Positions 10,169 to 55,978 of a DNA stretch of 64,000 bases are shown here, piece after piece. Location: NCBI RefSeq assembly GCF_030409845.1, contig NZ_JAUFQQ010000003.1:1426001-1490000 (forward strand). Direction: 5' to 3'. Made by a program: the position numbers and the translations under genes. Every line of letters starts with the position of its first letter. Within the stretch, counting starts at the first letter, position 1. Source of the DNA: Flavobacterium branchiarum (GTDB taxonomy: Bacteria > Bacteroidota > Bacteroidia > Flavobacteriales > Flavobacteriaceae). The notes beneath the pieces were generated by a model. The model was not told where the DNA came from and ran no database searches. It saw nothing but the letters and a program-made list of their open reading frames with translations.

Positions 10169-11080
10169 ATGAGAATAAATTTTTTGACAATAAGTGTTAT
10201 GTTAACGGGATTCCTATGTACCGCGCAACAAGATGCCCAGTTTACACAATATATGTATAATACCATTAGTATAAACCCGGCTTATGCAGGCTCAAGAGGT
10301 GCAATGAGTCTTTTTGGGCTTTATCGTACGCAATGGATTGGTCTGGATGGAGCACCAGAAACTAGCAGTTTTTCATTAAATACACCTCTAAATAATAGTA
10401 ACTTAGGGGTGGGAGTTTCACTTGTAAATGATAAAATAGGACCTATAAACGAGAATACTTTTTCGGCCGATTTATCTTATACAGTTCCTACATCTGAGAC
10501 TTTTAAATTATCTTTTGGAATCAAAGCTACCGCTAATTTATTCAATCTGGATATTAACAAATTGAACCCCGATGAGCAAGGTGATCCACAATTTCAAGAC
10601 CTAAATAGTAAATTTTCACCTAATATTGGAGCTGGAGTTTATTGGCATTCTGATAAAGCTTACATCGGTTTGTCGGTACCAAATTTTATCGAAACCAACC
10701 AATACAATGATAATGATGTAGCTATTTTTAAGGAAAAAATTAATTACTATTTAATCGCAGGTTATGTATTCGATTTAGATCCTTACATCAAGTTTAAGCC
10801 AGCTGTACTGACTAAAATGGTCGAAGGATCGCCACTGCAAGTAGATCTTTCAGCCAACTTTATGTTTAATGACAAGTTCGTGGTTGGGGCGGCCTATAGA
10901 TGGAGTGCTGCGATTAGTGCTATGGCAGGATTTCATGTTACCGAAGGAATGTACATAGGTTATGCATACGATCATGAAACTACCAGATTAAAGAACTATA
11001 ACTCTGGATCGCATGAGATTTTCCTTCGTTTTGAGTTCTTTAATAATTATAACCGAATTACCTCACCAAGATTCTTCTAA
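10169..11080 (+). CDS. PorP/SprF family T9SS outer-membrane protein
   Basis: 303 residues with a signal peptide and the family start 'QQDAQFTQYMYNTISINPAY' after cleavage, then a beta-barrel pattern of alternating residues to a C-terminal aromatic. PorP/SprF proteins are outer-membrane partners of the type IX secretion system; type B sorting-domain cargo often has a dedicated copy beside it. Position between the sorting-domain protein and the OmpA-PD40 protein (12-bp gap) supports a cargo/SprF/PorE-like operon. Length and start agree with the family. Confidence 0.9.
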   Translation: MRINFLTISVMLTGFLCTAQQDAQFTQYMYNTISINPAYAGSRGAMSLFGLYRTQWIGLDGAPETSSFSLNTPLNNSNLGVGVSLVNDKIGPINENTFSADLSYTVPTSETFKLSFGIKATANLFNLDINKLNPDEQGDPQFQDLNSKFSPNIGAGVYWHSDKAYIGLSVPNFIETNQYNDNDVAIFKEKINYYLIAGYVFDLDPYIKFKPAVLTKMVEGSPLQVDLSANFMFNDKFVVGAAYRWSAAISAMAGFHVTEGMYIGYAYDHETTRLKNYNSGSHEIFLRFEFFNNYNRITSPRFF

Positions 11081-11091
11081 AAGCAATAAAG

Positions 11092-13035
11092 ATGAAAATT
11101 AAACACCTATTATCGACCCTGTTGATTGTTTTTATTGCGTTAAAAGTAAGCGCACAAACAGCAATTCAGAATAAAGCCGAAAAGGATTATAACCAATATG
11201 CCTATATTGATGCTATTGCGATCTATGAGCGAGTAGCCGAAAAAGGATACAAAGACGAACAAACGTTTCAAAGGCTAGGTAATGCCTATTATTTTAATGC
11301 AGAATTAATAAAAGCTGCAAAATGGTACGATGCCCTTTTTGAAATGAATGCAGATCAAGAGCCGGAGTATTATTACCGTTATGCTCAGTGTTTAAAAGCT
11401 AGAGGTGATTACCAAAAAGCAGATAAGATTCTCGAAACTTTTAATAAAAAAGCAATCACAGATAAAAGAGGTATTTTGTTTGAAAAAAATAAAAACTACC
11501 TAGACCAGATAAAAGCCAACTCGGGACGATTTGAAATAGCCAATGCTGGAATAAATTCGACTCAATCCGATTATGGAAGTGCTTATTACGGGAACAAAAT
11601 TATTTTTGCTTCTGCCAGAGATACAGGAGGTGTTGTTAAAAATAAATTCAAATGGACTAATAAATCGTTTACCAACTTATATTGGTCAGAATTTAAAACG
11701 GATGGAACATTAGGGAAGCCCGAGCGATTTGAAAAGAAAATTAACTCTAAATTCAATGAATCGACACCTGTTTTTACTAAAGATGGTAAAACAATGTACT
11801 TTACAAGAAACAATTTTCTAGACGGTAAAAGAGGAAAAGACGATCAAAAAGTGACGCTTTTGAAACTCTATAGAGCAGAATTCATTAATGACAAATGGAC
11901 AAATATAACGGAATTGCCATTTAATAGTAACCAATACAGTACCGCTCATCCAGCATTAAGCAATGATGAAAAAAAGCTGTATTTTGCATCTGATATGCCA
12001 GGAACTTTAGGCCAATCTGATTTGTATAGTGTAACAATAAACGATGATAAAAGCTTTGGGAAACCAGAAAACTTAGGCCCAGGAGTTAATACCGAAGGGA
12101 GAGAGACTTTTCCATTTATAGCCACAGACAACCAATTGTATTTTGCTAGTGATGGTCGACCAGGATTAGGTGGGCTTGATGTATTTGTAACTACAATTAA
12201 AAACGATACTAGCTTTAGTACAGTACAAAATGTAGGTGCTCCAATAAATAGCCCACAAGATGATTTTGGATTTATCATTGATAACGAATCTCACACCGGT
12301 TTTTTTACCTCTAATAGAGAGGGCGGATTAGGGAGCGATGATATTTACAAACTATTAGAAACAAGAAAACTACTTTGTGAGCAAAAGCTAAAAGGGACAA
12401 TAATTGATTTAGAAACAAATAAAGTGCTTGATAATGCCAAAGTAATTTTATTTGATGAGCAGTTTAATCAGATAGGAGAAGCATTGACAAAGACAGACGG
12501 AAGTTATGTTTTTAGCAATGTAGAGTGCGGCAAAACCTATCATGTTAGAGCAGTCAAAGAAGAGTACGAGACAAAAGAAGTTCCGATAGTCATAGCTGGA
12601 CAATCAGGTGAAACAAGCTTAATTATTGCATTAGAAAAACGAATCAAACCAATAGGAGTGGGAACCGATTTAGCCAAAACGCTAAACATACCAATTATTT
12701 ATTTTGATTTAGATAAGTCTTTCATTCGCAAAGATGCCGCTTTTGAGTTAGAAAAAGTCTTGGCGGTTATGAAACAGTATCCAAAAATGAAAATCGACGT
12801 TCGTTCTCATACAGACAGCCGACAAACCGCTCAATATAATATCAATTTATCCAACAGAAGAGCCAAGTCGACCATACAGTGGTTGGTTAAAAATGGAATC
12901 GCTCAAAACAGATTGACAGGAAAAGGATATGGGGAGAGTCAATTAGTCAACAAATGTTCTGATAATGTACCTTGTACAGAAGTCGAACATCAGTTAAACA
13001 GACGAAGTGAATTTATAATTATTTCTATGGAGTAA
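11092..13035 (+). CDS. OmpA family protein with TPR and PD40 repeats (PorE-like)
   Basis: 647 residues. In order: signal peptide (to ~22), TPR-like helices (~25-125), a PD40/WD40-like beta-propeller (~150-420, with 'LYFASDMPGTLGQSDLYS' and 'LYFASDGRPGLGGLDVF'), a carboxypeptidase-regulatory-like beta-sandwich (~430-515), and a C-terminal OmpA domain (~530-647) with 'IIYFDLDKSFIRKDAAFELE' and 'DVRSHTDSR'. The OmpA domain should bind peptidoglycan, the propeller the outer-membrane partner. The same layout is known for T9SS-linked PorE-like proteins encoded next to PorP/SprF genes. It closes the surface cluster, followed by a terminator. Confidence 0.88.
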   Translation: MKIKHLLSTLLIVFIALKVSAQTAIQNKAEKDYNQYAYIDAIAIYERVAEKGYKDEQTFQRLGNAYYFNAELIKAAKWYDALFEMNADQEPEYYYRYAQCLKARGDYQKADKILETFNKKAITDKRGILFEKNKNYLDQIKANSGRFEIANAGINSTQSDYGSAYYGNKIIFASARDTGGVVKNKFKWTNKSFTNLYWSEFKTDGTLGKPERFEKKINSKFNESTPVFTKDGKTMYFTRNNFLDGKRGKDDQKVTLLKLYRAEFINDKWTNITELPFNSNQYSTAHPALSNDEKKLYFASDMPGTLGQSDLYSVTINDDKSFGKPENLGPGVNTEGRETFPFIATDNQLYFASDGRPGLGGLDVFVTTIKNDTSFSTVQNVGAPINSPQDDFGFIIDNESHTGFFTSNREGGLGSDDIYKLLETRKLLCEQKLKGTIIDLETNKVLDNAKVILFDEQFNQIGEALTKTDGSYVFSNVECGKTYHVRAVKEEYETKEVPIVIAGQSGETSLIIALEKRIKPIGVGTDLAKTLNIPIIYFDLDKSFIRKDAAFELEKVLAVMKQYPKMKIDVRSHTDSRQTAQYNINLSNRRAKSTIQWLVKNGIAQNRLTGKGYGESQLVNKCSDNVPCTEVEHQLNRRSEFIIISME

Positions 13036-13930: not shown

Positions 13931-14956
13931 TTAGTGACCTATACAAAAGAGAGTCTCCCCTATGTTAACTGGAGGAGTTCCTATTTTATATAGTATAATT
14001 CCGCTTACAGGAGCTGTTATCTGAGCTATTATTTTACCAAATTCATCTGTTATATACCCTAAATTTTGATTCTTGGTGATACTATCTCCACTTTGGATTG
14101 AACTGAAGAATATACCTTTTTGTGGAACCCTGATGTAAGATTGTTCATTTATATACTCTCTCTTTATTTCACCTGTTGCATTTTTTGCATTGATCATTTT
14201 TGAATAATCAAGCATGTTGTAAACAGCATTTTTTATCAGTTTTACATTCTCTGACTGAACGGTTCCTAGTTTTCCAGCTTCTATACTTAATGCGACAGTT
14301 CCGCTCTGTACAGCCTGTTTGAATGCATATTTTGCAATCTCATTTTTTGTAAGGTTATATGGATATGAAACGATATATTGCATACCAGAAGACTCACTTA
14401 ATAGTTTTGCTTTTTCTGTTTGACCATCCTTATTATCATAATAGCAGATAAAAGGGAGCAGATCTTCATTGGCATCACCGCCATGAATATCCAGAAAAAC
14501 ATCGGAATTGGGAATAATTTCCTTTGTAATCCAATGAGCAATCTGTTTTGAAATAGAACCTGAGACAGAACCAGGAAAAGCATTATTGAGGTTTAGTCCA
14601 TCTATCGGATTAACGAAAGGGGAGCGCTTATAAAAAGAAGCCACATTGGTTATGGGTAATATAATAAGCGTTCCTCTAAGCTTGGTAGCATCTATCTCTT
14701 TCATCAATTCTTGTACAGCAATGATTGGGGGATATTCATAGCCATGTATTCCAGCTATAATTGTAAAAACTGGCCCTGGATTTTTCCCTTTTATCACAGT
14801 AAGTGGTATATATTCAAGTGCGTTATCGCCTCTGAAAGAAATTAATTTATTGATCCGCTCTCCATTTTTTATTTCTTTGAGAGTATTCCTAAGTTCTTGA
14901 GCTTGTACATGATATATGCATAAAAAAAGGATTAAAATTAAAGCTATTCTTCTCAT
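13931..14956 (-). CDS. secreted zinc hydrolase of the succinylglutamate desuccinylase/aspartoacylase (M14-like) family
   Basis: 341 residues with a signal peptide ending near 'YHVQAQ'. Zinc ligands of the family are visible: H71 and E74 in 'AGIHGYEYP', and H158 in 'DVFLDIHGG'; the likely catalytic glutamate is E226 in 'LSIEAGKLG'. A C-terminal beta-barrel-like extension of ~100 residues ('APVSGIILYKIGTPPVNIGE') is typical of AstE/AspA-type members. The secreted location suggests cleavage of an N-acylated amino acid or peptide outside the cytoplasm; the substrate cannot be told. It is the first gene inside the putative island and stands alone. Confidence 0.8.
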   Translation of the reverse strand: MRRIALILILFLCIYHVQAQELRNTLKEIKNGERINKLISFRGDNALEYIPLTVIKGKNPGPVFTIIAGIHGYEYPPIIAVQELMKEIDATKLRGTLIILPITNVASFYKRSPFVNPIDGLNLNNAFPGSVSGSISKQIAHWITKEIIPNSDVFLDIHGGDANEDLLPFICYYDNKDGQTEKAKLLSESSGMQYIVSYPYNLTKNEIAKYAFKQAVQSGTVALSIEAGKLGTVQSENVKLIKNAVYNMLDYSKMINAKNATGEIKREYINEQSYIRVPQKGIFFSSIQSGDSITKNQNLGYITDEFGKIIAQITAPVSGIILYKIGTPPVNIGETLFCIGH

Positions 14957-44705: not shown

Positions 44706-44940
44706 GCTAGCGCGAGCATCTTGCTCGTGAGCATAAATAAATTTTCAATATTAGCTAAAAAAATAAGCAGAAAACACATATTTAGCTAAAAAGCTGAAAC
44801 TTGTTTTATCAATTTATTACTAATTTTATTGATTCCGAAATACGATTCTACATGAGATTATGATAATAACAATCAAACTTTTTTTCAAACTGATATTGAT
44901 TGATTAAGATTGTGCTCACGAGCAAGATGCTCGCGCTAGC
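44706..44940. mobile_element. 235-bp element with perfect 28-bp inverted ends
   Basis: The left end 44706-44733 (GCTAGCGCGAGCATCTTGCT...) and right end 44913-44940 are perfect reverse complements over 28 bp, much higher in GC than the AT-rich interior and surroundings. The interior has no gene. This is a MITE-like or REP-doublet structure at the edge of the cassette array. Confidence 0.8.
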
Positions 44941-44995: not shown

Positions 44996-45388
44996 TTATC
45001 CTAAATTACTATTCATTATATCTTCTCTAGAAAATCCTGCATTTAAAATCGCTATTGTATCGGTGATTTCTTTTGAATAATCTACTCTAATTATTTCAGG
45101 GGAGTCTGATAAATATTTAACTTTATAAAACTTACCAATATCTTTTAATGAAATTGTCGCTTTTAAATCATTTTCATGAAAATTATATTTTTCATTTTTT
45201 ATGCGATAGGATATATATATATTAGACCATTTAGGTAGTCTTTTAATACTATCAATTTTACCAATTGTTATTAGACCTTTTTCTTTTAATTCATTTTCGT
45301 ATTTATAACTTCGTATCTGACCGTACAAAACAAAAATAAAAAAAGCCATTAAAAATAATAACGGTATAATATTTCTCTTATTTATCAT
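44996..45388 (-). CDS. small membrane protein, immunity paralogue 1 (DUF3592-like)
   Basis: 130 residues with one N-terminal membrane helix ('IIPLLFLMAFFIFVLYGQIR') and a small beta domain ('ITIGKIDSIKRLPKW', 'GKFYKVKYLSDSPEIIRVDY'), ending 'GFSREDIMNSNLG'. Three close relatives lie at 45948, 47318 and 50840; three of the four directly follow a copy of the same toxin-like tip with a 2-bp gap. The domain pattern recalls DUF3592. I infer an inner-membrane immunity protein. Confidence 0.65.
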   Translation of the reverse strand: MINKRNIIPLLFLMAFFIFVLYGQIRSYKYENELKEKGLITIGKIDSIKRLPKWSNIYISYRIKNEKYNFHENDLKATISLKDIGKFYKVKYLSDSPEIIRVDYSKEITDTIAILNAGFSREDIMNSNLG

Positions 45389-45390
45389 AA

Positions 45391-45523
45391 TTAATCTAAT
45401 ATTTTTGGAGCAACATTTGCTCCAACTCCAATAACTCCTTTAAAATATTCTTTGACCACTGTCTCTCCAAAACTAGAACCCGAAAGGTAATTATCTGTGG
45501 CCTTCCCAAAATGATTACTTATA
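45391..45523 (-). pseudogene. orphan tip fragment (membrane-type tip), truncated
   Basis: The minus strand encodes 'SNHFGKATDNYLSGSSFGET' followed by 'VVKEYFKGVIGVGANVAPKI' and a stop at 45391, matching the C-terminal end of the tips at 47713 and 51238. Its 5' end fuses into the stop codon of the lipoprotein gene 45515-45862 at a shared AAGTAATC word, a likely recombination scar. Confidence 0.7.
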
Positions 45524-45862
45524 AACTTGATCTCCACATTCAAAATTGAAACTTAAAACAGTATCTTTTTTATGGATACTAAAAATAAGTTCACCTTTCT
45601 TTTTTACAAGTGTATCTCCAACTTCTATATAGCCTTTGTAAATAGACCACCATCTATCGCTTATTTGTGAATTACAATCACATTTTTTTTCTGTTATTGG
45701 GTTGGTTCCTTTATAGTCAAATCGACTGTATTTATCAGTTAATTTTTCAACTATTAAAAGACACTCATCATCACGGCGAGCATCTGCTAACAATTCACAA
45801 TCAACAACTGATCCACAGGAAAACATCAATAAAATAACACTTAACAAAATAATACATTTCAT
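45515..45862 (-). CDS. small lipoprotein, immunity-like, paralogue of 51694-52032
   Basis: 115 residues from the ATG at 45862 ('MKCIILLSVILLMFSCGSVV'); the longer open frame to 45937 runs through the conserved 75-bp boundary sequence and is not used. Lipobox 'LMFSCGS'. The body shares 'RRDDECLLIVEKL', 'GDTLVKKKGELIFSIHKKDT' and the final 'YK' with the lipoprotein that follows the active mini-RHS gene. It therefore looks like an archived immunity gene whose cognate tip has been lost. Confidence 0.68.
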   Translation of the reverse strand: MKCIILLSVILLMFSCGSVVDCELLADARRDDECLLIVEKLTDKYSRFDYKGTNPITEKKCDCNSQISDRWWSIYKGYIEVGDTLVKKKGELIFSIHKKDTVLSFNFECGDQVYK

Positions 45863-45875
45863 AATTTTTTTATTT

Positions 45876-45950
45876 GTCAATATACTTAGATGGAATGGGG
45901 GAAATTCCGCGCGGCATTTGGCTACATATCCAAGCAATAGTACATTGTTA
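45876..45950 (-). repeat. 75-bp cassette-boundary repeat, copy A
   Basis: From GTCAATATACTTAG to the stop codon of the DUF3592-like gene. Copies B (47246-47320) and C (50768-50842) have the same length and only a few differences. It includes 'TGGAATGGGGG' and 'ATTCCGCGCGGCATTTGGCT'. Confidence 0.85.
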
Positions 45951-46346
45951 TTCTATTCCTAAATTACTATTCATTATATCTTCTCTAGAAAATCCTGCTT
46001 TTAAAATAGCTAATGTATCGGTGATTTCTTTTGAATAATTACCTCTAACTATTTCAGGAGATTCAGGTAAGTATCTGATTTCATAAAATTTCCCAATGTC
46101 TTTATTAGAGATTCCTGTCTGTAAACCATTTTCATAGGAAGTATATCGCTTGTCTCCAATAAAATACGACATATGTAAATAAGACCACTTTGGTAACTCT
46201 TCAATACTGTCAATCCTACTAATTGTTACAACACCTTTTTCTTTTAATTCATTTTCGTATTTATAACTTCGTATCTGACCGTACAAAACAAAAATAAAAA
46301 AAGCCATCAAAAATAATAACGGTATAATATTTCTCTTATTTATCAT
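45948..46346 (-). CDS. small membrane protein, immunity paralogue 2 (DUF3592-like)
   Basis: 132 residues from the ATG at 46346 ('MINKRNIIPLLFLMAFFIFV'), a start identical to paralogue 1; the open frame continues upstream to 46433 without similarity. The N-terminal half is nearly the same as 44996-45388, the C-terminal half ('LPKWSYLHMSYFIGDKRYTS') is nearly the same as 47318-47710, so it looks like a recombinant of the two. It ends in the conserved 75-bp boundary. No tip directly precedes it. Confidence 0.65.
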   Translation of the reverse strand: MINKRNIIPLLFLMAFFIFVLYGQIRSYKYENELKEKGVVTISRIDSIEELPKWSYLHMSYFIGDKRYTSYENGLQTGISNKDIGKFYEIRYLPESPEIVRGNYSKEITDTLAILKAGFSREDIMNSNLGIE

Positions 46347-46454
46347 AATTAATCTAATTATTGATAACGAACAAGCAAACAAAAAACTTAATCCACCAAG
46401 GCAACAAAGCTCTTCTTCTCTCAGTAACTTCAAAATTATAATTCATAAATTTCT

Positions 46455-46925
46455 CTACACATTAAATTCTATACAACAAATTAAATAACATAATACAGAA
46501 TATTTTTCGATTTGTTTATTTTCTACAAGAAATTTGATATCTAAATTATAACCTTCTAAATCTAAAATATCCCTCATAGATACAATAGCAATTAATTCCG
46601 AATTAAAATATATCTTGGAAAAAATCTTTTTATTAAAGAAAAAAAAAGGATTATTTTTAATTCTAATTTGATTTTCATCAATTAAAAAATCTGTCATATA
46701 TAGTTGTTGTTTGATAATATTAATTTTCTCAAAAAAAGATTGATATAAAATTTGTTTTTTAAAAAAAATACCTAATTGTATTTTACCTATTTTATTATCC
46801 CCTTCGAAAATTTCTCCATAAGTTTTAAAAGAAAGCAATGGTGTATTTCTAATCATTGTATAAACTATATTTCTATCATCGTAGACAGTAATTTTACTTT
46901 TATTTTTTACATTTATCTGTATCAT
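46455..46925 (-). CDS. hypothetical protein coupled to an orphan tip, probable immunity
   Basis: 156 residues, beta-rich, no signal ('MIQINVKNKSKITVYDDRNI', 'KIGKIQLGIFFKKQILYQSF'). Its ATG overlaps the TGA of the preceding tip fragment (ATGA), the tight coupling typical of toxin-immunity pairs. No recognised family. Confidence 0.6.
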   Translation of the reverse strand: MIQINVKNKSKITVYDDRNIVYTMIRNTPLLSFKTYGEIFEGDNKIGKIQLGIFFKKQILYQSFFEKINIIKQQLYMTDFLIDENQIRIKNNPFFFFNKKIFSKIYFNSELIAIVSMRDILDLEGYNLDIKFLVENKQIEKYSVLCYLICCIEFNV

Positions 46926-47122
46926 TCTTGAGTTCCTATTTTTAAATCCACACTAATTCCAAAAAATGCTCTAATACCAGCTCCAATATCTAAGCAATTA
47001 CAATAAGTTGCCATGGTTGCTCTTGGAGATACATTTAAACCTGAATGACTTGGTAAAAAATTATTTCCGAAATCTAAGGCTGTTTGTCCATGATATTTTA
47101 ATTTTCCATTCCATATGTCCCA
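46922..47122 (-). pseudogene. orphan tip fragment 2
   Basis: Open on the minus strand from a TGA at 47123 down to 46922, encoding 'WNGKLKYHGQTALDFGNNFL', 'SPRATMATYCNCLDIGAG' and 'GISVDLKIGTQE'. There is no start codon or RHS head; it is a displaced C-terminus like those kept in polymorphic toxin arrays. Glycine-rich, beta-type composition recalls the tip of the active mini-RHS protein, without clear identity. Confidence 0.55.
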
Positions 47123-47201
47123 TCAAGATTTTTTATTTAATTCTACCTATTGTTCAGAACAGGTATTAATGTATATAGGGTCACAATTTATTAAAGACAG
47201 A

Positions 47202-47223
47202 AAGCCTCGTAGATACGAGGCTT
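47202..47223 (-). terminator. hairpin inside cassette array
   Basis: Perfect palindrome-like stem AAGCCTCGTA / TACGAGGCTT (effective loop TAGATA), with GC content above the surroundings. No T-run follows on the minus strand, so it may be a structural or recombination element rather than a terminator. Confidence 0.45.
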
Positions 47224-47245
47224 ATATCTCATAATTTTTTTATTC

Positions 47246-47320
47246 GTCAATATACTTAGATGGAATGGGGGAGATTCCGCGCAGCATTTGGCTACATATT
47301 CAAGCAATAGTACATTGTTA
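47246..47320 (-). repeat. 75-bp cassette-boundary repeat, copy B
   Basis: Same sequence as copy A with changes such as GCGCAG for GCGCGG. Similarity even continues past the boundary into 'CATAATTTTTTTATT' at 47229-47245, which in copy A is the start of a lipoprotein gene, so that gene has been lost here. Confidence 0.85.
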
Positions 47321-47710
47321 TTCTATTCCTAAATTACTATTCTCAATATCTTCTCTAGAAAATCCTGCTTTTAAAATAGCTAATGTATCGGTGATTTCTT
47401 TTGAATAATTACCTCTAACTATTTCAGGAGATTCAGGTAAGTATCTGACTTCATAAAATTTTCCAATATCTTTATTAGAGATTCCTGTGTGCAAACCATT
47501 TTGATAGGAAATATATCGCTTGTCTCCAATATAATATGACATATGTAAATAAGACCACTTTGGCAACTCTTCAATCCTGTCAATCCTGCCAATAGTTGTT
47601 ACACCACTTGCTTTTAATTTATTATCAGTGTTGTAACCCCATAGATACGCGAACATAAGAAGTAAAAACATCCCTCCTAGAATTATTATTGCTTTTGTTT
47701 TAACTTTCAT
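47318..47710 (-). CDS. small membrane protein, immunity paralogue 3 (DUF3592-like)
   Basis: 130 residues: N-terminal membrane helix ('AIIILGGMFLLLMFAYLWGY'), then the shared domain 'GRIDRIEELPKWSYLHMSYY' and 'GKFYEVRYLPESPEIVRGNY', ending 'GFSREDIENSNLGIE'. The start ATG at 47710 lies 2 bp after the stop of the decayed mini-RHS copy, the same spacing as for paralogues 1 and 4. Probable inner-membrane immunity to the adjacent hydrophobic tip. Confidence 0.7.
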   Translation of the reverse strand: MKVKTKAIIILGGMFLLLMFAYLWGYNTDNKLKASGVTTIGRIDRIEELPKWSYLHMSYYIGDKRYISYQNGLHTGISNKDIGKFYEVRYLPESPEIVRGNYSKEITDTLAILKAGFSREDIENSNLGIE

Positions 47711-47712
47711 AA

Positions 47713-48822
47713 TTATTCTATTTCTTGTGGAATCGAATTTGCCCCAACTCCGATAACTCCTTTAAAATATTCTTTGACCACTGTTTCCCCAAAGCTTGAA
47801 CCTGAAAGATGGTTGTCAGTCGCCTTCCCAAAACGATTACTTAATACCGAAGCACCTGCTTGAACGGCCCATTTATTAAATGATTTTGGCACTGAAGGTC
47901 CATCATCTTCCATGAAATTATTAGGCGTATAACTAAATGTTTCTCCAAAAATAACAGGGGCAAATCCAGGAACAATAGAACTACCAGCCGAAAATAAATT
48001 TATTTCTCCAAAATTTCTTCCGTTTGATAAATATTGAGCTCCTGCATTCCCGACTACATTAGTTATTGCAGATTGCAGAGTTATTTAAGAAAATGCTGAC
48101 GCAACTTCTGCAATCGCATAAGACCCTCCTGCCGCCAGACTTCCTGAAACTGCCAATATTGGTAAAGCGACTACACCAGCAACCATTGCAGCATGAGTGG
48201 GGTCTTTATCAGGACCATAGGCTCCTGATGGAACATAATTGCTTTTATATCCTTTAATATTAACATTGTTTAATGCAATAGTATTACCTAAATCTTTCGC
48301 TCCATTCTGTCCTATCCAAGTAGTCGTAGCTTTATTGTATTTCCAACTACCACTACTATCAGTATGAATAGCCCCATCATTTGCGTCTACACCAGTAGGG
48401 GGGGGGCTGCAATCATACCTGTTGGATCAACAAAATTTATAGGATTATTGAAAGCATAAACATACGAACCATAATTAGGCATTTTTTCACTTAATGGGTC
48501 TGGAGATATCCATCGTCCTACAGCATCACCAATAGGTTGTGCATAAGGATCTGTAGGGTCATGGATTATGCGTCCAACAATTTGTTGGTTCTTTACATGC
48601 CAGCGGACTCTACCAATAGTGACGATACTATCTAGGTCATGAACTTCGAGATATTTTCCGTTACTCAACGTTGCAACATGCGCTTTTGAACCATATTTAG
48701 CAAATGGATTTCCTGCTAGAATATTTTTTGCTCTTCTTTCCTGTTCTTCTTTTGATAAAATTTTCTGAGCCGAAACTACATTAAAACTAAGGACTAAAAG
48801 TATTAAAAAATATAGGTTTTAT
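47713..48822 (-). pseudogene. decayed second mini-RHS gene with membrane-active-like tip
   Basis: Reads like 52035-53108 from the signal peptide onward ('LSKEEQERRAKN', 'LEVHDLDSIVTIGRVRWHV', 'GRWISPDPLSEKMPNYGSYV', 'NPINFVDPTGM'). Three lesions: the start ATG is ATA with a 2-bp loss (near 48820), a G9 tract at 48398-48406 shifts the frame by +2 relative to the G5-TT of the other copy, and a TAA interrupts the tip at 48085-48087. After the shared head the tip diverges: 'HAAMVAGVVALPILAVSGSL' (hydrophobic, possibly membrane-inserting) and ending 'SSFGETVVKEYFKGVIGVGA'. Head sequence is nearly identical to the intact gene while the tip is unrelated, the classic polymorphic-toxin pattern. Confidence 0.85.
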
Positions 48823-48937
48823 GTTTATTGTTGTTTAGGGCTCTATTCTAGAACTTTATTTTATGTTAAATATAGTTTTATCATTTTCTTTGGCAATAAA
48901 GAAAATGCTATAATTAAATTTTTCTTTATTATTTTAA
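48823..48937. other. spacer with 10-bp inverted repeat
   Basis: CATTTTCTTT (48882-48891) and AAAGAAAATG (48898-48907) form a perfect stem with a 6-nt loop, but without a T-run on the minus strand. It sits between the lipoprotein gene and the dead head copy. Confidence 0.35.
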
Positions 48938-49489
48938 TTATTTATCGTTAAACTTAATTGTTTTAAAAGAATTAACTAATAAATCACTTTCAGTCTTATT
49001 TAAATTTTCTCCAATTATTGTTAATCTGTTTTTAGATTTTTTAACACTATCAATTGAGATTCCTGTAAATCCTTTACCTTCATTTTTAGGAATTCTTAAT
49101 TTTGATTTATGTTTATCAATAATAATATACATATAAAATTCATTTAAAAACGTACCTTGAGCTTGATCTATTTCAGGAGTATAAGACCAAAATAAATTTT
49201 CCGTATCCATGCCCATTTCTTTATACTTTAAAAATTGTTTTCTAGAAAAAACTTTATTAGTTTCATTAAATTTCTCAGTATTTTCTCCAAAATCACTTGT
49301 TATGGTATCGCCTTTTGCAGTTATAATAACTCCTAAATAACTATCAATTCCTCTTTGATTTATTTCTTTCCAATCACTTGGTATGTCTATCTGATAATTT
49401 CCAATATTAATAGTTTTTGCTTTATCTTCATTACAACTGAAAATAAATATTGTTAGTAAGATGACTATTATTTTTTTGTACTTTTTCAT
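48938..49489 (-). CDS. lipoprotein, probable immunity to the metzincin tip
   Basis: 183 residues with lipobox 'FIFSCNEDK'. The body is an alpha/beta domain with 'YQIDIPSDWKEINQRGIDSY' near the N-terminus and ends 'LLVNSFKTIKFNDK'. The start lies 2 bp after the stop of the metallopeptidase-like tip gene, the spacing seen for every tip-partner pair in this array. A periplasm-facing lipoprotein would fit protection against a protease acting in the periplasm. No known family recognised. Confidence 0.65.
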   Translation of the reverse strand: MKKYKKIIVILLTIFIFSCNEDKAKTINIGNYQIDIPSDWKEINQRGIDSYLGVIITAKGDTITSDFGENTEKFNETNKVFSRKQFLKYKEMGMDTENLFWSYTPEIDQAQGTFLNEFYMYIIIDKHKSKLRIPKNEGKGFTGISIDSVKKSKNRLTIIGENLNKTESDLLVNSFKTIKFNDK

Positions 49490-49491
49490 TG

Positions 49492-50256
49492 TTATTTTAT
49501 TTTATTTTTTGATAAAAAATCATTTACCTGTGTTTGAATCTTAGTGTTATAGTTTGTACTATTTTGAGATTGAATATAAATCCCATTTCCTTCTAGAGGA
49601 CCTACTTGATTATACAAAATATTACCTCTTTCAGAAGCACTTGTAGAAGTAGTACCTGCTATGATTGATGGATTCATTAATCCTCCATTCTTATGCTCTA
49701 ATCCTAAATTGTGACCTATTTCATGTTGAGCTGCTTGATTAAAAGTACTATTTTTTATTGTTCCAATTTCTACAGCACTTACTCTTCCTCCTTTAATTGC
49801 TAAACCTACAGGTTTAATGCCATTAGCTATTTTGGGTATATCATTTACTAACATCATGACGTGGTCATTTTCTCCAACTTCTTTTAAAGAGCTTACAACT
49901 TTATAATCAAGAAAAACATTTTGCAAATTATCAGATGCATAAATATCATTGCCTCTAAAATCTTTTTGCGCAACACCCGTCATTGACGATAGTTGAACAG
50001 ACCCAACAGATTTATTAAACATTGTTTTAGATAAATCTGCACTGTTTGAGTTAACAATGGTTAAGGTCATTCTTATACTTATATCTCTTTGAACATAGTG
50101 AATATCTCCTTTTTTATTAGAAACGTTGGTGATTATATCATATGGTAATGGTGCCATTCCATCAGGATCAACAAAATTTATAGGATTATTGAAAGCATAA
50201 ACATACGAACCATAATTAGGTGTTTTTTTTCTGAAAACGAATTTTAATTTGCGCAC
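49492..50256 (-). CDS. orphan RHS-core tip with metzincin-type zinc protease domain
   Basis: 254 residues from a GTG at 50256. Only the last part of the RHS core remains ('PNYGSYVYAFNNPINFVDPD'); no signal peptide or head. The tip contains 'AQHEIGHNLGLEHKNGGLMN': zinc ligands H178, H182 and H188, catalytic E179 and a Met-turn at M194, the full HExxHxxGxxH signature of metzincins. It is therefore a complete protease domain stored without its export head, followed 2 bp later by a lipoprotein. It could become active by recombination with the upstream mini-RHS head through the shared core sequence (inference). Confidence 0.8.
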   Translation of the reverse strand: MRKLKFVFRKKTPNYGSYVYAFNNPINFVDPDGMAPLPYDIITNVSNKKGDIHYVQRDISIRMTLTIVNSNSADLSKTMFNKSVGSVQLSSMTGVAQKDFRGNDIYASDNLQNVFLDYKVVSSLKEVGENDHVMMLVNDIPKIANGIKPVGLAIKGGRVSAVEIGTIKNSTFNQAAQHEIGHNLGLEHKNGGLMNPSIIAGTTSTSASERGNILYNQVGPLEGNGIYIQSQNSTNYNTKIQTQVNDFLSKNKIK

Positions 50257-50286
50257 TACACAAATTTCAAAGAGTTACGCTTCAAT

Positions 50287-50718
50287 TTATTCTTTTAAAA
50301 AAAAATATAAATTAGGGAAAGCACTTTTAAAGTTTTTTCCTTTAACTAAAGAATTGTTGCCATATTCTAATCCAACATCTATATAAGAGTGGATTATTTT
50401 TTTTTGTTCACTGTTTATTTTTGAAATGGATTTTATGTATTCCGTTTCACCTAATGTTGTAACTAGATCAACAATAACTGCCCCTTGATCATATCCAACG
50501 GCATTGTCAAACTCTAATAACGATAATTTTTTTATTGAATTTTCATCGCCAGTGAGGGCTTTCCTTAATAATTCACAATAATTAATAGATTTTTCATTTG
50601 CAACTGTACTTAACAATACACTAACCTCTATATTTTTTACAATACATTTATTGCTACAAGAGTTTATAAGTAATAGTAAAATGCACATACGCATAATTAT
50701 ATAAAAATTAGTTCTCAT
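50287..50718 (-). CDS. orphan lipoprotein, immunity-like
   Basis: 143 residues from the ATG at 50718 ('MRTNFYIIMRMCILLLLINS'), lipobox 'LLINSCSNK'; ATGs at 50736 and 50694 are alternatives. Helical body with 'EYIKSISKINSEQKKIIHSY'. No family recognised. It follows a 75-bp boundary copy and has no adjacent tip of its own, so it is probably a left-over immunity gene. Confidence 0.55.
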   Translation of the reverse strand: MRTNFYIIMRMCILLLLINSCSNKCIVKNIEVSVLLSTVANEKSINYCELLRKALTGDENSIKKLSLLEFDNAVGYDQGAVIVDLVTTLGETEYIKSISKINSEQKKIIHSYIDVGLEYGNNSLVKGKNFKSAFPNLYFFLKE

Positions 50719-50767
50719 TATTCTTGTTTTTCCCAATCATCTTGAATTTTCTCATTTAATTTTATTT

Positions 50768-50842
50768 GTCAATATACTTAGATGGAATGGGGGAGATTCC
50801 GCGCGGCATTTGGCTACATATCCAAGCAATAGTACGTTGTTA
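50768..50842 (-). repeat. 75-bp cassette-boundary repeat, copy C
   Basis: Third copy, again ending exactly at the stop codon of a DUF3592-like gene. Differs from copy A at only about three positions. Confidence 0.85.
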
Positions 50843-51235
50843 TTCTTTTCCTAAATTACTATTCTCAATATCTTCTCTAGAAAATCCTGCATTTAAAATC
50901 GCTAGTGTATCGGTGATTTCTTTTGAATAATTACCTCTAACTATTTCTGGAGATTCAGGCAAATATTTCATTTCATAAAACTTACCAATATCATTTTTTG
51001 TAGTTTTATATTCTATATCGCTTTCAAATGAAGTATATTTTTTATTGTCAATATAATACGTTAAATACACCGTTGAGGCCCATTTAGGAGGAGTAACAAT
51101 AGAATCAAGTCTTGCGATTGTTTTTTTTCCATTTTCTTTTAATTTGTTATCAGTACAATAACCTCTTATATATGCGAATAAAAGAAGAGAAAACATCCCT
51201 CCAAAAAATAATATTGCCTTTGTTTTTACTTTCAT
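50840..51235 (-). CDS. small membrane protein, immunity paralogue 4 (DUF3592-like)
   Basis: 131 residues: membrane helix 'AILFFGGMFSLLLFAYIRGY', domain 'ARLDSIVTPPKWASTVYLTY', 'GKFYEMKYLPESPEIVRGNY', ending 'GFSREDIENSNLGKE'. The start is 2 bp after the stop of the orphan tip 51238. The middle of the protein is the most diverged from its paralogues, as expected if it co-varies with its own tip variant. Confidence 0.7.
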   Translation of the reverse strand: MKVKTKAILFFGGMFSLLLFAYIRGYCTDNKLKENGKKTIARLDSIVTPPKWASTVYLTYYIDNKKYTSFESDIEYKTTKNDIGKFYEMKYLPESPEIVRGNYSKEITDTLAILNAGFSREDIENSNLGKE

Positions 51236-51237
51236 AA

Positions 51238-51580
51238 TTATTCTATTTCTTGTGAAGCTGAGTTAGCTCCAACTGCTACAAATCCTTTAAAATATTCTCT
51301 TACCATTGCTTCTCCAAAACTAGACCCCGAAAGATAATTATCTGTTGCTTTTCCAAAACGATTACTTAAAACTGCTGCACCTACTTGAACTGCCCATTTA
51401 TTAAATGATTCTGGAGTTTGAGGGACTTGTCCTTTCATTATGTTTTTAGGTGTCCATCCTAAGGTTTCTCCAAAAATAGCAGGTCCCATTCCTGGTACAA
51501 TTGAACTTGCTGTAGAAACAATATTAATATTCTCAAATTTTCTACGATTTGGATAATATTGAGCCGTCGCATTTGATAAT
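51238..51580 (-). pseudogene. orphan tip of the membrane-type (third copy)
   Basis: Homologous to the 3' half of the tip at 47713: 'AQYYPNRRKFENINIV', 'SSIVPGMGPAIFGETLGWTP', 'SNRFGKATDNYLSGSSFGEA', ending 'GANSASQEIE'. The frame is open but loses similarity and start signals near 51580, where unrelated DNA begins. No head or signal peptide. The ATG at 51489 lies inside the conserved region and is probably not used. Confidence 0.7.
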
Positions 51581-51693
51581 ACATGTATATCGCCCTAGCG
51601 CACTGTTACCTAATTTTCGGACTAGCTGTGGAAATAGAATATCTTATATTTTTTTTTAATGTAATGTACATTTCAAAAAAATCATAGAGATAG

Positions 51694-52032
51694 TTACTTA
51701 TAAATCTTTCCCTCACATTTCCAAGGAAAAGTTAGTACTGTATCCTTCTTATGAATATTAAAAATTAATTCTCCTTTTCTTTTAATAATAGTATCTCCTA
51801 TAGAAATGTGACTATTATATTCATACCAACCATTATTTGTCTTATATTCTCTTTTTTCACCTGATATTGGATCAATCCCACTAATATTAAATCTATAAGT
51901 CCCCGTATTTGGCTTATTATAAACAACAACGAGAAACTCATCATTCTTTCTTTTTTCTGCTAAACGATTACAATCAACTTTCATACAAGAATTGAAAGTC
52001 AAAACTAATAACATCAATAAAGAGTATTTCAT
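51694..52032 (-). CDS. lipoprotein, probable immunity partner of the active mini-RHS protein
   Basis: 112 residues, lipobox 'LTFNSCMKVDCN'. Shares 'KRKNDEFLVVV', 'SIGDTIIKRKGELIFNIHKK' and a final 'IYK' with the archived lipoprotein at 45515-45862. Starts 2 bp after the stop of the intact mini-RHS gene, so it is the current partner of that tip. A lipoprotein in the periplasm or outer membrane implies that the tip acts outside the cytoplasm (inference). Confidence 0.72.
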   Translation of the reverse strand: MKYSLLMLLVLTFNSCMKVDCNRLAEKRKNDEFLVVVYNKPNTGTYRFNISGIDPISGEKREYKTNNGWYEYNSHISIGDTIIKRKGELIFNIHKKDTVLTFPWKCEGKIYK

Positions 52033-52034
52033 AT

Positions 52035-53108
52035 TTAATTATTTTTAGAATTATAAAATATTATCGTATTAGAGCCTGTAAATCCAGCATTGAATCCTAC
52101 TTTCAAATCAAAACTTTTTGTTTCAACACCTTTATCTGAAAATCCAAAATTATTACTTTCAGCGGATTTAGAATAAGTCCCACCAAAAAGAAGTGAGCCA
52201 GTATAGCCTGTTGAAGTACCTCTTAATCCATCAAGTACGCCAGTGTTTCCTCCATAATTATCATACATATCAAAAGACAATCCACATCCCAATTTAGGCA
52301 ATGCTAATGTACCATTATAACCAATGTTACCCCCATAGCTTCCAAAAAAAGCAAAATCTTTTTTTCTGTCAATTGCAATCCCTATGGCTCCATGAAATTC
52401 TCCAAAAAGTCCAGTATTTATATTAACATTTGTTGAAAATCCAGTTGCATCTGGTATATAAGGCGAATAAGGATTTTTACCGTCAATATATTTATAGGTG
52501 TCAAAATAACCTTGGTAATACGATGTTTTTTTATACCCCTTAATATTAACATTATTTAATGCAATAGTATTACCTAAATCTTTCGCTCCATTCTGTCCCA
52601 TCCAAGTAGTCGTAGCTTTATTGTATTTCCAACTACCACTACTATCTGTATGAATAGCCCCATCATTTGCATCTACACCAGTAGGGGGTTCTGCAATCAT
52701 ACCTGTTGGATCAACAAAATTGATAGGATTATTGAAAGTATAAACATAGGAACCATAATTAGGCATTTTTTCACTTAACGGGTCTGGAGATATCCAGCGT
52801 CCTACAGCATCGCCAATAGGTTGTGCATAAGGATCTGTAGGGTCATGAATTATACGCCCGACAATTTGTTGGTTCTTTACATGCCAGCGTACTCTACCAA
52901 TAGTGACGATACTATCTAGGTCATGAACTTCGAGATATTTTCCGTTGGTCAACGTTGCAACGGGTGCTTTTGAGCCGTATTTAGCAAATGGATTTCCTGC
53001 TAGAACATTTTTAGCTCTTCTTTCTTGTTCTTCTTTTGACAAAATTTCCTGAGCTGAAACTACATTAAAACTAAGGATTAAAAGTATTAAAAAATAAAGG
53101 GTTTTCAT
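52035..53108 (-). CDS. mini-RHS protein: secreted head, RHS core motif and variable tip
   Basis: 357 residues from the ATG at 53108 ('MKTLYFLILLILSFNVVSAQ' signal peptide); the longer start at 53132 would overlap the upstream gene. Head of ~95 residues ('LEVHDLDSIVTIGRVRWHV', 'IIHDPTDPYAQPIGDAV'), RHS-associated core 'GRWISPDPLSEKMPNYGSYV' and 'NPINFVDPTGM', a junction segment ('SWKYNKATTTWMGQNGAKDL') and, after 'NVNIKGYK', a tip of ~160 glycine/asparagine-rich residues. Full-length RHS proteins carry many YD repeats; none exist here. The identical head in the decayed copy at 47713-48822 has an unrelated tip. This is the intact expression locus of the array, third gene after two transglutaminase-like genes. 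Confidence 0.82.
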   Translation of the reverse strand: MKTLYFLILLILSFNVVSAQEILSKEEQERRAKNVLAGNPFAKYGSKAPVATLTNGKYLEVHDLDSIVTIGRVRWHVKNQQIVGRIIHDPTDPYAQPIGDAVGRWISPDPLSEKMPNYGSYVYTFNNPINFVDPTGMIAEPPTGVDANDGAIHTDSSGSWKYNKATTTWMGQNGAKDLGNTIALNNVNIKGYKKTSYYQGYFDTYKYIDGKNPYSPYIPDATGFSTNVNINTGLFGEFHGAIGIAIDRKKDFAFFGSYGGNIGYNGTLALPKLGCGLSFDMYDNYGGNTGVLDGLRGTSTGYTGSLLFGGTYSKSAESNNFGFSDKGVETKSFDLKVGFNAGFTGSNTIIFYNSKNN

Positions 53109-53112
53109 GAAA

Positions 53113-54153
53113 TTAATTTTTATTAAATGCATTTATCTTTTTATTTTGATATTTGTTTTTTTCGGTTTTTAAAGAAACTAACCAACTGAGGTACACATTT
53201 TCGGGCATATTTCTGTATCCTATTTCATGAATAAAAGCGTATTGTTTTTCTAATTTTTTAAAGAGCAAATTTTGTTTTTCTTTATCGATTTCTTTTTCAA
53301 TTAGAGTGTAGTTTGTTTCCGCTTTTAAAATCAATGCCGATGCAAAGTTTGGATATTGTTTTATGGCCAACTCGCAACATCTTAAAACGAATTCTCCATC
53401 ATTATTAGGGAATCTAGCATTATAGTTTTCCGCTAAGTCAATTAAAACAAGGGCGATACTTTCATTATTATTTAAAGCTTTCATATATACTCCGTTAGCA
53501 ATAGCATCAATATGCACAAAGCCCGACGCCATAATCCAAGCATCAATAGGAAACATGGCACTTGTTAATTCGGTATTGTACCAGCCCTCTTTTAGGCTGC
53601 GATGTTTGATATAAATATGATTTGGTGCTAGTGCTAGATTTGCTTCTACACCCAATTGTTCAGCAAGAATTTTATATAAATAGGGTAAAGAATGACAATT
53701 ACCCTTTCGTGTTTCTAATAATTTTGAAACAAAAAGACTCTTTTTGGTCTGATGTCCAAAGACATCATTAAAATCATAACCAAAAGGTTTGTATTGATAT
53801 ACTATATTATTTGTAATTAAAGGAATAGTATCACACATGACTTGAAAAACAGCTGCCCATTTATTGACCTTTTCTTTATCCTTTTCAGGATAATCTAAAA
53901 AGCGTTCTTTGGTAAGAGCCAAAGTCAAATTATGTAAATTTTTCAGTTTCTTATTTAGCGAAACGGTGTCTAGGTTTCCATCTAAATAAGCATTTTCTAC
54001 AGAAAAGACTGCTTTCTTAAAGCTGTAATTATTTTCATTGGCAATCATGCCATTGAGTAAAGTATAGCTATCTTCAAACAGATTCTCTTGTTTTTGCGCA
54101 TTTGCACAAAAAAAGGAAATAAGTAATACTAGTATGTATATTGTTTTCTTCAT
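53113..54153 (-). CDS. secreted transglutaminase-like protein with C-terminal TPR region
   Basis: 346 residues, signal peptide to 'FFCANAQ'. A transglutaminase/papain-like triad is readable: C153 in 'RKGNCHSLPYLYKILAEQLG', H179 in 'LALAPNHIYIKH' and an acidic residue in 'WYNTEL'. TPR-like helices follow ('ELAIKQYPNFASALILKAET'). Ends 4 bp before the mini-RHS start and begins 3 bp after its paralogue, so all three form one operon. Probable role: processing or cross-linking of the RHS partner at the cell surface (inference). Confidence 0.75.
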   Translation of the reverse strand: MKKTIYILVLLISFFCANAQKQENLFEDSYTLLNGMIANENNYSFKKAVFSVENAYLDGNLDTVSLNKKLKNLHNLTLALTKERFLDYPEKDKEKVNKWAAVFQVMCDTIPLITNNIVYQYKPFGYDFNDVFGHQTKKSLFVSKLLETRKGNCHSLPYLYKILAEQLGVEANLALAPNHIYIKHRSLKEGWYNTELTSAMFPIDAWIMASGFVHIDAIANGVYMKALNNNESIALVLIDLAENYNARFPNNDGEFVLRCCELAIKQYPNFASALILKAETNYTLIEKEIDKEKQNLLFKKLEKQYAFIHEIGYRNMPENVYLSWLVSLKTEKNKYQNKKINAFNKN

Positions 54154-54156
54154 TTT

Positions 54157-55518
54157 TTAATCTTTTTGTTTTTTTATAATTAGTCCTTTAAATTGTTTCT
54201 TAACTGTTTCGTTTTCTTGTTTGTGCTTTGCATCTTTTAGTGAACCTAACCAATTTTCATAAGCTTCAGCAGGCATGTGTTGATAGCCCAAATCTTTAAT
54301 TCTTTTATACTGCTTATTCGATTTATTTAATAAATGGACCGCTTGAGGGTAAGCATTGATCTTTTGTAACTCTTTGTTATCTTCAGGATTTATGCCTATT
54401 TTATTTGTAACATATCTAAAAAATGCGTTGTCGTAATTTGCTTTAAGCATATTCGCATTGATATTATTAGGATATAATTCTATAGCTTTATTGATTACTT
54501 TTTCTATAAATCCATCGTAACCGTATTTTTGAACATATCCAACTGCCAAGTCAGTATAAAATTGAGATAGTAATTGTTGTTTGGACAAACCTTTCATGTA
54601 AATACGATTTTGAATCGCTTCTGCTTTTATAAATCCTGAGTTTAGAATAAATGATGAAACAGTATACACTCCGCGGGTAAGTTCCAGATTATACCACTTT
54701 CCTGTTTCATCTTGAAACTTGATATACATATGGTTTGGACTAAGTGCCAAATAGGCTTTTGCTCCGATTTCTTCTGCAAGTATTAAGTAATACAATGGCA
54801 TGGAATGGCATTGTCCAGTTCCAGTACGCATAAGTTTAGTAACAAACATCTTAGACAAATCTTTGTTACCACTATAATCTTCAAAATCGTATTTTATCGG
54901 AAAGTGCTTTTCTTTGAAACCGTTTACTTCAAGTGGTTGAGTAAAGAATTCAAAAAGCATAAAATTTTTAAGTGCATTACTGTTAACATCATAATTCAAT
55001 TCTTTCATCTTAGCTATCAAAAATTTACCAGTCTGCTTAATGGTTTTATCAAATAGATCTTTATCCAGTTTGTTTTCAAAATAGGCGTTTTCAATTTCAA
55101 AGTTTACATCTTTAACAGAGAAGTTTTCTTTGTTTAGTGTGAGCATTTTATCATAAACATTTCGATAATACTCTGTTCCCTTTAGATTTGAAAAAGTAGG
55201 TGGAACATAATTACTGTTTTTAGATTGATTACTCCATGAACTAATTAGCTTTAATCTTTCTTTTTTTCTCCTTTCAATCAGTTCGTTTTCTCGTATCAAT
55301 TGGCGATTTTGCTGTTCCGTAATTTGCTGTTGTTGTTTTAAACCTAAAAAATCATTTTTATCAAAAATGTCTATTCTCGGTGCGTTCGGAAAATTAGGAT
55401 GGGGGTTTGTATTGAAGGGAGTGTAATGATCATTAGGACTTGGAAATCTAACCTGTCCAGAGGTTAATATTGTTGACAAGAATAACGATATGCTTAAAAT
55501 AATTTCGGTCAATTTCAT
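54157..55518 (-). CDS. secreted transglutaminase-like protein, longer paralogue
   Basis: 453 residues, signal peptide to about 'STILTSGQ', then a Q/R/E-rich coiled segment (~55-95) and a transglutaminase-like domain with C237 in 'TGTGQCHSMPLYYLILAEEI', H263 in 'ALSPNHMYIKF' and 'WYNLELTRG'. TPR-like helices ('AIELYPNNINANMLKANYDN') and a basic tail ('QFKGLIIKKQKD') follow. Same layout as the next gene (3-bp gap), so an old duplication. First gene of the mini-RHS operon. No activity is proven for this family. Confidence 0.75.
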   Translation of the reverse strand: MKLTEIILSISLFLSTILTSGQVRFPSPNDHYTPFNTNPHPNFPNAPRIDIFDKNDFLGLKQQQQITEQQNRQLIRENELIERRKKERLKLISSWSNQSKNSNYVPPTFSNLKGTEYYRNVYDKMLTLNKENFSVKDVNFEIENAYFENKLDKDLFDKTIKQTGKFLIAKMKELNYDVNSNALKNFMLFEFFTQPLEVNGFKEKHFPIKYDFEDYSGNKDLSKMFVTKLMRTGTGQCHSMPLYYLILAEEIGAKAYLALSPNHMYIKFQDETGKWYNLELTRGVYTVSSFILNSGFIKAEAIQNRIYMKGLSKQQLLSQFYTDLAVGYVQKYGYDGFIEKVINKAIELYPNNINANMLKANYDNAFFRYVTNKIGINPEDNKELQKINAYPQAVHLLNKSNKQYKRIKDLGYQHMPAEAYENWLGSLKDAKHKQENETVKKQFKGLIIKKQKD

Positions 55519-55978
55519 TCCTTTTGTTTTTGGTTAAAATAGTATAAAATCTAATTAGTTTAAAATAATTCCTACAATGTAATTATTTTTAATAGATTAA
55601 TACTGTTAAATTTTAAATTTAACACAAAAGGTAGGCTTGAGCATTACGGATTTTTACGGTATCGTACGCAGTACTACAGAGCAGTATTACTAAGAAAACC
55701 CTTTTTTATATTATTTTATTTAGTACTAGAAATAGCTTGAAAGTCAGGGCACTTCTTACGAGAATTTTCAATATTACTAGGGAAAAAATCAAACAAAAAA
55801 AACCTCAATTTTGTAAAATCGAGGTTTAAAATATAATTAGAGTTTTTACTCTACATCCAAATGAAGGTTTACAAAGGAGCAATACTATGGTTGCGGTTCT
55901 TCAATTTTATAACTTGAAAGGATCAAATAGGCAAAGCGAATTAGTCGAGTTATAAGATTGATTTAGTAATGAATGATC
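55519..55978. other. intergenic region upstream of the mini-RHS operon
   Basis: 460 bp with no gene. It must hold the promoter of the minus-strand operon and contains the terminator of the AraC gene at 55800-55828. No TAnnTTTG element was seen close to 55518. Confidence 0.45.
55800..55828 (-). terminator. terminator after AraC gene
   Basis: Stem AAACCTC / GAGGTTT with an inner AT extension and A-run on the plus side (T-run on minus). Confidence 0.7.

Follow-up and report, generated by a model that had tools for sequence, protein, structure and literature searches.

For the Rhs and contact-dependent growth inhibition (CDI) systems, displaced modules of a toxin tip and its immunity gene are well established (PMC3150448; this and the other papers are cited for the part of their text that was available). 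In orphan rhs-CT/rhsI loci, a constant region runs to the motif PxxxxDPxGL and is followed by a variable tip with an immunity gene behind it; displaced modules lie downstream, and homology breaks at the motif. Orphan arrays are also present for cdiA-CT/cdiI, where tips are exchanged at a short conserved boundary motif, VENN (PMC3150448). In the type VI secretion system (T6SS) clusters of Vibrio cholerae, arrays of immunity genes retained after successive displacement of effectors were described (PMC5361080). A transglutaminase-like fold has been reported for polymorphic toxins either as the toxin tip (Tox-TGase) or, in inactive form, as an N-terminal domain fused ahead of RHS repeats (Zhang et al. 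2012, PMC3482391). Here, a locus of Flavobacterium branchiarum is compared with these systems. It lies on the minus strand at positions 44996-55518 of a 64,000-nucleotide stretch (the window; contig NZ_JAUFQQ010000003.1, positions 1,426,001 to 1,490,000) of a genome of 5.0 Mb. In the order of transcription, it consists of the genes for two exported transglutaminase-like proteins, TG1 and TG2, a gene for a short Rhs-type head joined to a tip, a partner gene, and an array of tip remnants and eight more partner open reading frames (ORFs).

The locus shares with Rhs loci the constant region ending at the motif, the variable tip, the gene behind it, the displaced modules downstream and the break of homology. 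Unlike Rhs loci, it has no YD-repeat shell, its exported head comprises only ~136 residues, and a dedicated transglutaminase-like pair is present. None of the 16 Flavobacterium carriers, and one of 22 carriers in all, gave a match to the T6SS marker VipB (PF05943), by a search in which a divergent T6SS could be missed. T6SS delivery as the general route was rejected on this count, and an involvement of T6SS is unlikely. The orphan array and the exchange at a short motif are as in CDI; however, no large CdiA-type protein is encoded in the locus, and the motif is a different one. Displaced effectors with kept immunity genes recall the V. cholerae clusters, whereas the constant part here belongs to the toxin gene itself. 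As in the cases given in the available part of PMC3482391, a transglutaminase-like fold is tied to exported Rhs-type toxins, but here it is found in two separate exported proteins encoded upstream of the toxin gene, with the Cys-His-Glu triad intact and without repeats. An earlier note, made from the window alone, had held the system as a whole to be undescribed. The principle of displaced tips and retained immunity genes is already known for CDI, Rhs and T6SS, and the claim stands for the transglutaminase-coupled, shell-less module: no description of a separate exported pair directly before a shell-less Rhs head was found in the open-access literature searched, the coverage of which was partial.

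The locus is best read as a transglutaminase-coupled, shell-less Rhs-type polymorphic toxin, a reading to which we give a probability of about 80%. By sequence, a constant exported head is joined at PxxxxDPxG to any of dozens of unrelated tips, and a partner gene of its own usually comes behind the tip. Cassettes of tip and partner are read as being swapped through recombination within the final ~75 bp of the head; the older tips of the window are mostly decayed, and the partner ORFs are open. The partners would neutralise the toxin at a membrane or in the periplasm, and the TG1/TG2 pair would be a Cys-His-Glu enzyme with the head as its substrate, active at the cell surface or in the periplasm.

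A constant head and exchangeable tips

All genes named in the earlier note were found on the minus strand at their places. The intact mini-RHS gene with a lipoprotein partner, reported for 51694-53108, is made up of the head+tip gene (52035-53108) and the partner gene (51694-52032), with a gap of 2 bp. The signal peptide of the head comprises 19-20 residues by inspection. A secreted head of fewer than 200 residues lacking YD repeats had been proposed, and no Pfam RHS repeat was identified in the window protein or among the 20 families matched by 120 of its relatives. These relatives are the best 120 of 447 found at E <= 1e-3, and the analyses of the full head given below refer to them. The profile TIGR03696 (Rhs_assc_core) matches the window head at residues 101-137 only, with 32.2 bits at a cut-off of 32.5, and matches the heads of 120 of the 120 relatives at E <= 0.01. 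Residues K57, Y58, E60, D63, D65, W105 and D109 are invariant in 119 of 119 heads, and D100 is present in 118. The 119 heads were cut at the pattern [DN]PxG, which makes the conservation of D133-P-x-G in them partly a matter of construction; for this part the uncut alignment of 120 relatives was relied on, in which P128, D133 and G136 never vary and 90% or more of the sequences have P134. In caged Rhs toxins, PxxxxDPxG contains the autocleavage aspartate (PMC8636562). The head appears to have lost the Rhs cage, with the boundary and autocleavage motif retained. When the head was compared with solved structures, 12 weak matches were obtained (E 0.018-0.18). In ten of these, the matched part was the C-terminal Rhs end of TcC or teneurin-like chains, which is suggestive and no proof. 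A second head type is shorter and ends as the full head does; it was found in 734 proteins at E <= 1e-3, which may overlap with the 447.

After splitting at the motif (119 of the 120 proteins), the heads form one blastp cluster and the tips 47. Together with 117 of the best 120 of the 734 short-head proteins, 236 tips fall into 72 clusters, 16 of which are common to both head types. The comparison with toxin families suggested in the earlier note gave matches for some sister tips: at E <= 0.01, Pfam assigned five to Toxin-JAB1, three to Tox-MPTase2, three to Peptidase_M91 and one each to Tox-URI2, Ntox24, Tlde1 and Hydrolase_2, and six sister tips are reprolysin-like. For the active tip of the window, relatives were found on the C-terminus of a conventional Rhs protein in another Flavobacterium (G022) and elsewhere in the source genome, in each case adjoining the same partner family.

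The note had also predicted that among relatives the head would be conserved and the active tip swapped. Between species, with one genome per species, this was observed. Six genomes (G075, contig 11 of G259, G338, G395, G408 and G419) carry the module between the same upstream neighbours, with heads 62-99% and TG2 59-98% identical, and with four types of tip. Tips of different types share 7-24% identity (shuffled sequences 4-22%) and tips of one type 99-100%; for the partners, the values are 11-23% between and 90-98% within types. The pair G075-G338 reaches 24%, slightly more than the shuffled range, so a very remote relation of these two tips is possible. At the far end of the array, one partner is common to G338 and G408 (89%) and one to G075 and G259 (84%), with differing active tips. 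Old partners thus appear to persist while the tip changes. At a second site with common neighbours (L052 and L059), TG2 is 80%, the head 76% and the tip 15% identical.

Stored tips recur as active ones. Two paralogous arrays lie elsewhere in the source genome (C3:1741200-1748123 and C5:41602-44276); the second array is called L055 and the third L056 in the following. The headless metzincin tip of the window and the tip of a full head+tip gene of L055 (14657-15730) share 96% identity, and their partners 84%. L055 has a headless tip of its own (10789-11529); it shares 74% identity with the tip that is active in another species (L059), the partners being 53% identical. In Flavobacterium hydatis (L047, G408), the array contains a whole second head+tip gene; the same tip type serves as the active tip of Flavobacterium sp. 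ENC (L050) and of G307. Judged by these identities, stored and active tips are the same kind of thing.

A recombination seam is seen within the window. Positions 50155-51373 correspond to L055:10858-9635 (88%) and positions 48929-50228 to L055:16291-14994 (93%); the two homologies overlap only in the 74 bp at 50155-50228, the coding stretch of the last residues of the head. In the third array, the head-derived sequence of a headless tip starts at the matching place (L056:9848). We read this as an exchange of tip and partner cassettes by recombination at the boundary motif, within the final ~75 bp of the head. Taken together, conserved head, unrelated tips and swapped cassettes strongly support the reading of the locus as a polymorphic toxin, in which the tips are probably antibacterial toxins and the partners their immunity proteins.

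Retained partner genes

The nine small partner genes counted in the earlier note are all open (9/9), whereas all displaced tips of the window but one are decayed. The metzincin tip (49492-50256, with the motif HEIGHNLGLEH) is complete, and the copy described in the note as a decayed head with a different tip (47713-48822) has no intact frame, its head being 94% identical at the DNA level (48243-48820 versus 52529-53104, over 578 bp). The "three further headless tips" at 45391, 46922 and 51238 turned out to be C-terminal stubs; the ORFs at 45391 and 51238 comprise 50 and 83 codons, and no start of its own was seen for the remnant at 46922. Instead of an "archive of tips", the array is better described as immunity-like genes that were retained and tips that decayed, one displaced tip being complete. 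The close spacing of tips and partners was read directly from the sequence, with gaps of 2 bp at 45391/45388, 47713/47710, 49492/49489, 51238/51235 and 52035/52032 and an ATGA overlap near 46922-46925.

The partners were grouped into families, designated by F and a number. F2 is a membrane-type protein of ~130 residues with four copies in the window, which are 73 to 92% identical to each other at the DNA level; in the six pairwise comparisons of these copies, the ratio of nonsynonymous to synonymous substitution rates (dN/dS) was 0.27-0.62. The F3 family has five members in the loci compared, four of them next to homologous tips. For 31 head+tip genes with a partner ORF, the gap ranges from -95 to +91 bp and lies within -11 to +19 in 26. 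This set omits a carrier with no partner ORF (L051), a tip at a contig end (L052), a cut tip (L055:8201) and the near-duplicates L127, L128 and L129. By a simple hydrophobicity rule, an export-type N-terminus was assigned to 27 of the 31 partners, hand-chosen and including near relatives, versus 200 of 451 other ORFs of the compared loci (p 3e-6). Since most partners carry such N-termini, neutralisation, and often the target too, would be located in the periplasm or at the membrane.

The transglutaminase-like pair and alternative readings

The earlier note had counted the coupled transglutaminase-like pair as part of the system, in agreement with both its adjacency and its distribution. TG2 is present in 16 of 398 Flavobacterium genomes, and the full head in the same 16 (Fisher p 1e-27); among 395 Bacteroidota genomes, TG2 and the full head were found in the same 7. 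Head matches covering the last 35-70 positions only were dropped as partial (G209, a second place in G101, two places in G432, G623 and G672). A further TG-like match (G391:C3) adjoins a diverged head-like protein that lies below the threshold of the head search. At this place, L130, the diverged TG gene is accompanied by the head-like protein, which has no clear DPxG end, and a small membrane-type gene, with neighbours that are pilin-like by eye; L130 is perhaps an offshoot of the system. On the stretches taken of L142, L143 and L144, only a single TG gene could be made out. In distant Bacteroidota (L140, L141 and L060), the two TG genes bracket the head-partner cassettes rather than precede them; by eye, TG2 of L141 and the head next to it have similar N-termini. 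Among the matches listed, Flavobacterium psychrophilum is the named source of 10 of 120 TG2 proteins and 2 of 120 heads.

TG2 scored 23.0 and 23.5 bits with Pfam Transglut_core2 (PF13369), the curated cut-off being 23.5, whereas TG1 remained below it (E 0.046). All 10 aligned TG1 sequences have the Cys, His and Glu of the triad, and the three residues stand at matching columns in 49 of 49 chosen TG1/TG2 sequences, down to 28% identity to TG2. The predicted fold of TG2 comes closest to menin entries, as a menin-like fold. At the sequence level, menin (PF05053) gave no match to the TG genes of 8 genomes at E <= 10, and an identity with menin was rejected on this ground; the TG1/TG2 profile gave 14 matches to solved structures, none to a transglutaminase or menin, the best being VPS28 (E 0.022). 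Human menin lacks the catalytic Cys, which TG2 has, and in the available part of the same paper the menin family is described as solely eukaryotic and the detailed roles of bacterial Transglut_core2 members are stated to be unknown (PMC10318531). From the model, TG2 is a possible bacterial relative of the menin family.

The pair probably processes or mounts the toxin. A protease freeing the tip or the head would be its most likely role, with about even odds for processing, and a cross-linker mounting the head a less likely one. One rival, that the pair is a catalytically idle scaffold or chaperone which binds the head in a menin-like pocket and hands it on to an exporter in the outer membrane, is tentative at best: an idle pocket would not need the triad kept in all 49 sequences. 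A true transglutaminase or transpeptidase attaching the head covalently to the cell surface or to another protein is somewhat more doubtful still. Cross-linking via Gln36 of the head, a possible donor, was considered and is not supported in the window.

Several observations weigh against the toxin reading or its enzymatic part. Gln36 is kept in 115 of 119 relatives and is Leu in the window. The sequence evidence does not tell protease, cross-linker and scaffold apart, and the structure predicted for head and tip was discarded at a predicted local distance difference test (pLDDT) score of 37. At most ~22 of the 120 relatives have a tip of a named family and ~100 match no known toxin family; the active tip of the window matches neither Pfam nor a known toxin family. 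Directly behind the tip of L051, no ORF of at least 60 codons was found, so a partner is not always seen. A divergent T6SS might have been overlooked in the carriers. The co-occurrence models were seeded with loci found via TG2, and at least four of the 16 carriers (G000, G013, G269 and G408) and six of the 7 (all but G605) contributed rows to them, so that weaker or diverged heads without TG genes could be missed. Finally, at two of the three loci in the source genome, heads are found without an adjacent TG pair, and one pair is present genome-wide; linkage in cis is therefore not needed. In addition, the crossing of the outer membrane is left unexplained by the proposed mechanism.

The solitary heads also fit an ordinary Rhs locus with orphan rhs-CT/rhsI modules, the short head being a decayed Rhs protein and the TG genes dispensable neighbours or a transposed accessory. 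The Rhs_assc_core match of all 120 heads, the orphan modules known for Rhs (PMC3150448) and the occurrence of the window's tip and partner family on a conventional Rhs end are in line with this. However, every carrier in the two samples (16 of 16 and 7 of 7) has both the full mini head and the TG genes. The whole head of ~136 residues is conserved, with K57, Y58, E60 and D63 in all 119 sequences, and is therefore no decayed remnant of the end of an Rhs gene. This reading is unlikely. That the tips are host-directed or nutrient-acquiring secreted enzymes, with the partners as inhibitors or accessory lipoproteins rather than kin immunity, is the least probable reading: several tips are metallopeptidases and F. 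psychrophilum, a fish pathogen, is among the named carriers, but sister tips of the URI nuclease, cell-wall hydrolase and Tlde1 types (one protein each), the joint inheritance of tips and partners and the retention of orphan partners speak against it.

Where their structures have been studied, Rhs toxins enclose the tip in a large cage. In the transglutaminase-coupled toxin proposed here, a large exported family keeps only the last ~40 residues of the Rhs machinery and a small conserved head, tied to enzymes wherever genomes could be checked. This raises the question of the minimal sufficient Rhs protein, gives bacterial Transglut_core2-like proteins a testable role and would provide a compact, exchangeable toxin chassis in Bacteroidota. 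As a more speculative proposal, which we consider possible and no more likely than that, the locus would represent a distinct class of Bacteroidota polymorphic toxins in which the Rhs cage is dispensed with. To hold, free or deliver the tip would then be the job of a dedicated, exported and catalytically intact pair of the transglutaminase fold, and such enzymes may be ancestral to menin or have an ancestor in common with it. Should the likeness to the menin fold be due to homology, it would bear on the origin of a major human tumour suppressor and drug target.

Features of the array

Features of the locus in the window, in the order of transcription (nine rows are marked as partner ORFs)
Feature	Position	Strand	Remarks
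Leader upstream of TG1	55519..55874	-	DNA comparison
TG1, exported, transglutaminase-like, 453 aa	54157..55518	-	Cys237-His263-Glu279
TG2, exported, transglutaminase-like, 346 aa	53113..54153	-	Cys153-His179-Glu195; helical (TPR-like) C-terminal half
Mini-Rhs head	52701..53108	-	signal peptide, ~115 conserved residues, PxxxxDPxG, no YD repeats
Active tip, ~220 aa, Gly-rich	52035..52700	-	beta-rich in low-confidence model
Active-tip partner, F3, lipoprotein-like, 112 aa	51694..52032	-	partner ORF; 2-bp gap to tip
C-terminal stub of F2-type tip	51238..51489	-	ORF of 83 codons; 79% DNA identity to stub before 47710
F2 partner copy, 131 aa	50840..51235	-	partner ORF; N-terminal hydrophobic segment
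Conserved non-coding spacer after F2 partner genes, ~95 bp	50745..50839; also 47223-47317, 45853-45947	-	
Orphan partner, F7, lipoprotein-like	50287..50718	-	partner ORF; counterpart at corresponding place in L055 (10294-10725)
Recombination seam	50155..50228	-	sole overlap of two separate homologies to L055
Headless metzincin-type metallopeptidase tip, HEIGHNLGLEH	49492..50256	-	Reprolysin_5 E 5.5e-5, 23.9 bits, curated cut-off 27
Metzincin-tip partner, F11, lipoprotein-like	48938..49489	-	partner ORF
Decayed head+tip copy, F2-type tip	47713..48822	-	no intact frame; head DNA 94% identical
F2 partner copy	47318..47710	-	partner ORF
Partner-like ORF after tip stub (stub end ~46922)	46455..46925	-	partner ORF; ATGA overlap
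F2 partner copy	45948..46346	-	partner ORF
Orphan F3 partner copy, lipoprotein-like	45515..45862	-	partner ORF
C-terminal stub of F2-type tip	45391..45543	-	ORF of 50 codons
F2 partner copy, last gene of the array	44996..45388	-	partner ORF

A whole homologue of the F2-type tip is present in both paralogous arrays (L055:12475-13422 and L056:9079-9780). The spacer behind the F2 partner genes has five matches genome-wide, every one inside the three toxin arrays. For the ORF at 46455-46925, no relative was identified among the 16 loci compared. The leader of TG1 also directly precedes the heads of the paralogous arrays: window positions 55513-55874 correspond to L055:7849-8206 and 14305-14662 (79%), and positions 55513-55659 to L056:11272-11417 (84%).

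In the second array, an internal TAG cuts short the tip of the first head+tip gene (L055:8201-9277), and the partner that comes next has an open ORF. Another orphan-tip array, separate and larger, is L057 (C3:978000-997000 of the source genome), which consists of a conventional Rhs gene followed by seven short ORFs of Rhs end and tip with interspersed small genes. Just past the end of the window array, at 44706-44940, two 31-nucleotide inverted repeats, 97% complementary and 173 nucleotides apart, look like a small inverted-repeat element. Sequence that overlaps with one of the two arms is also found next to the array in L056 (11411-11448).

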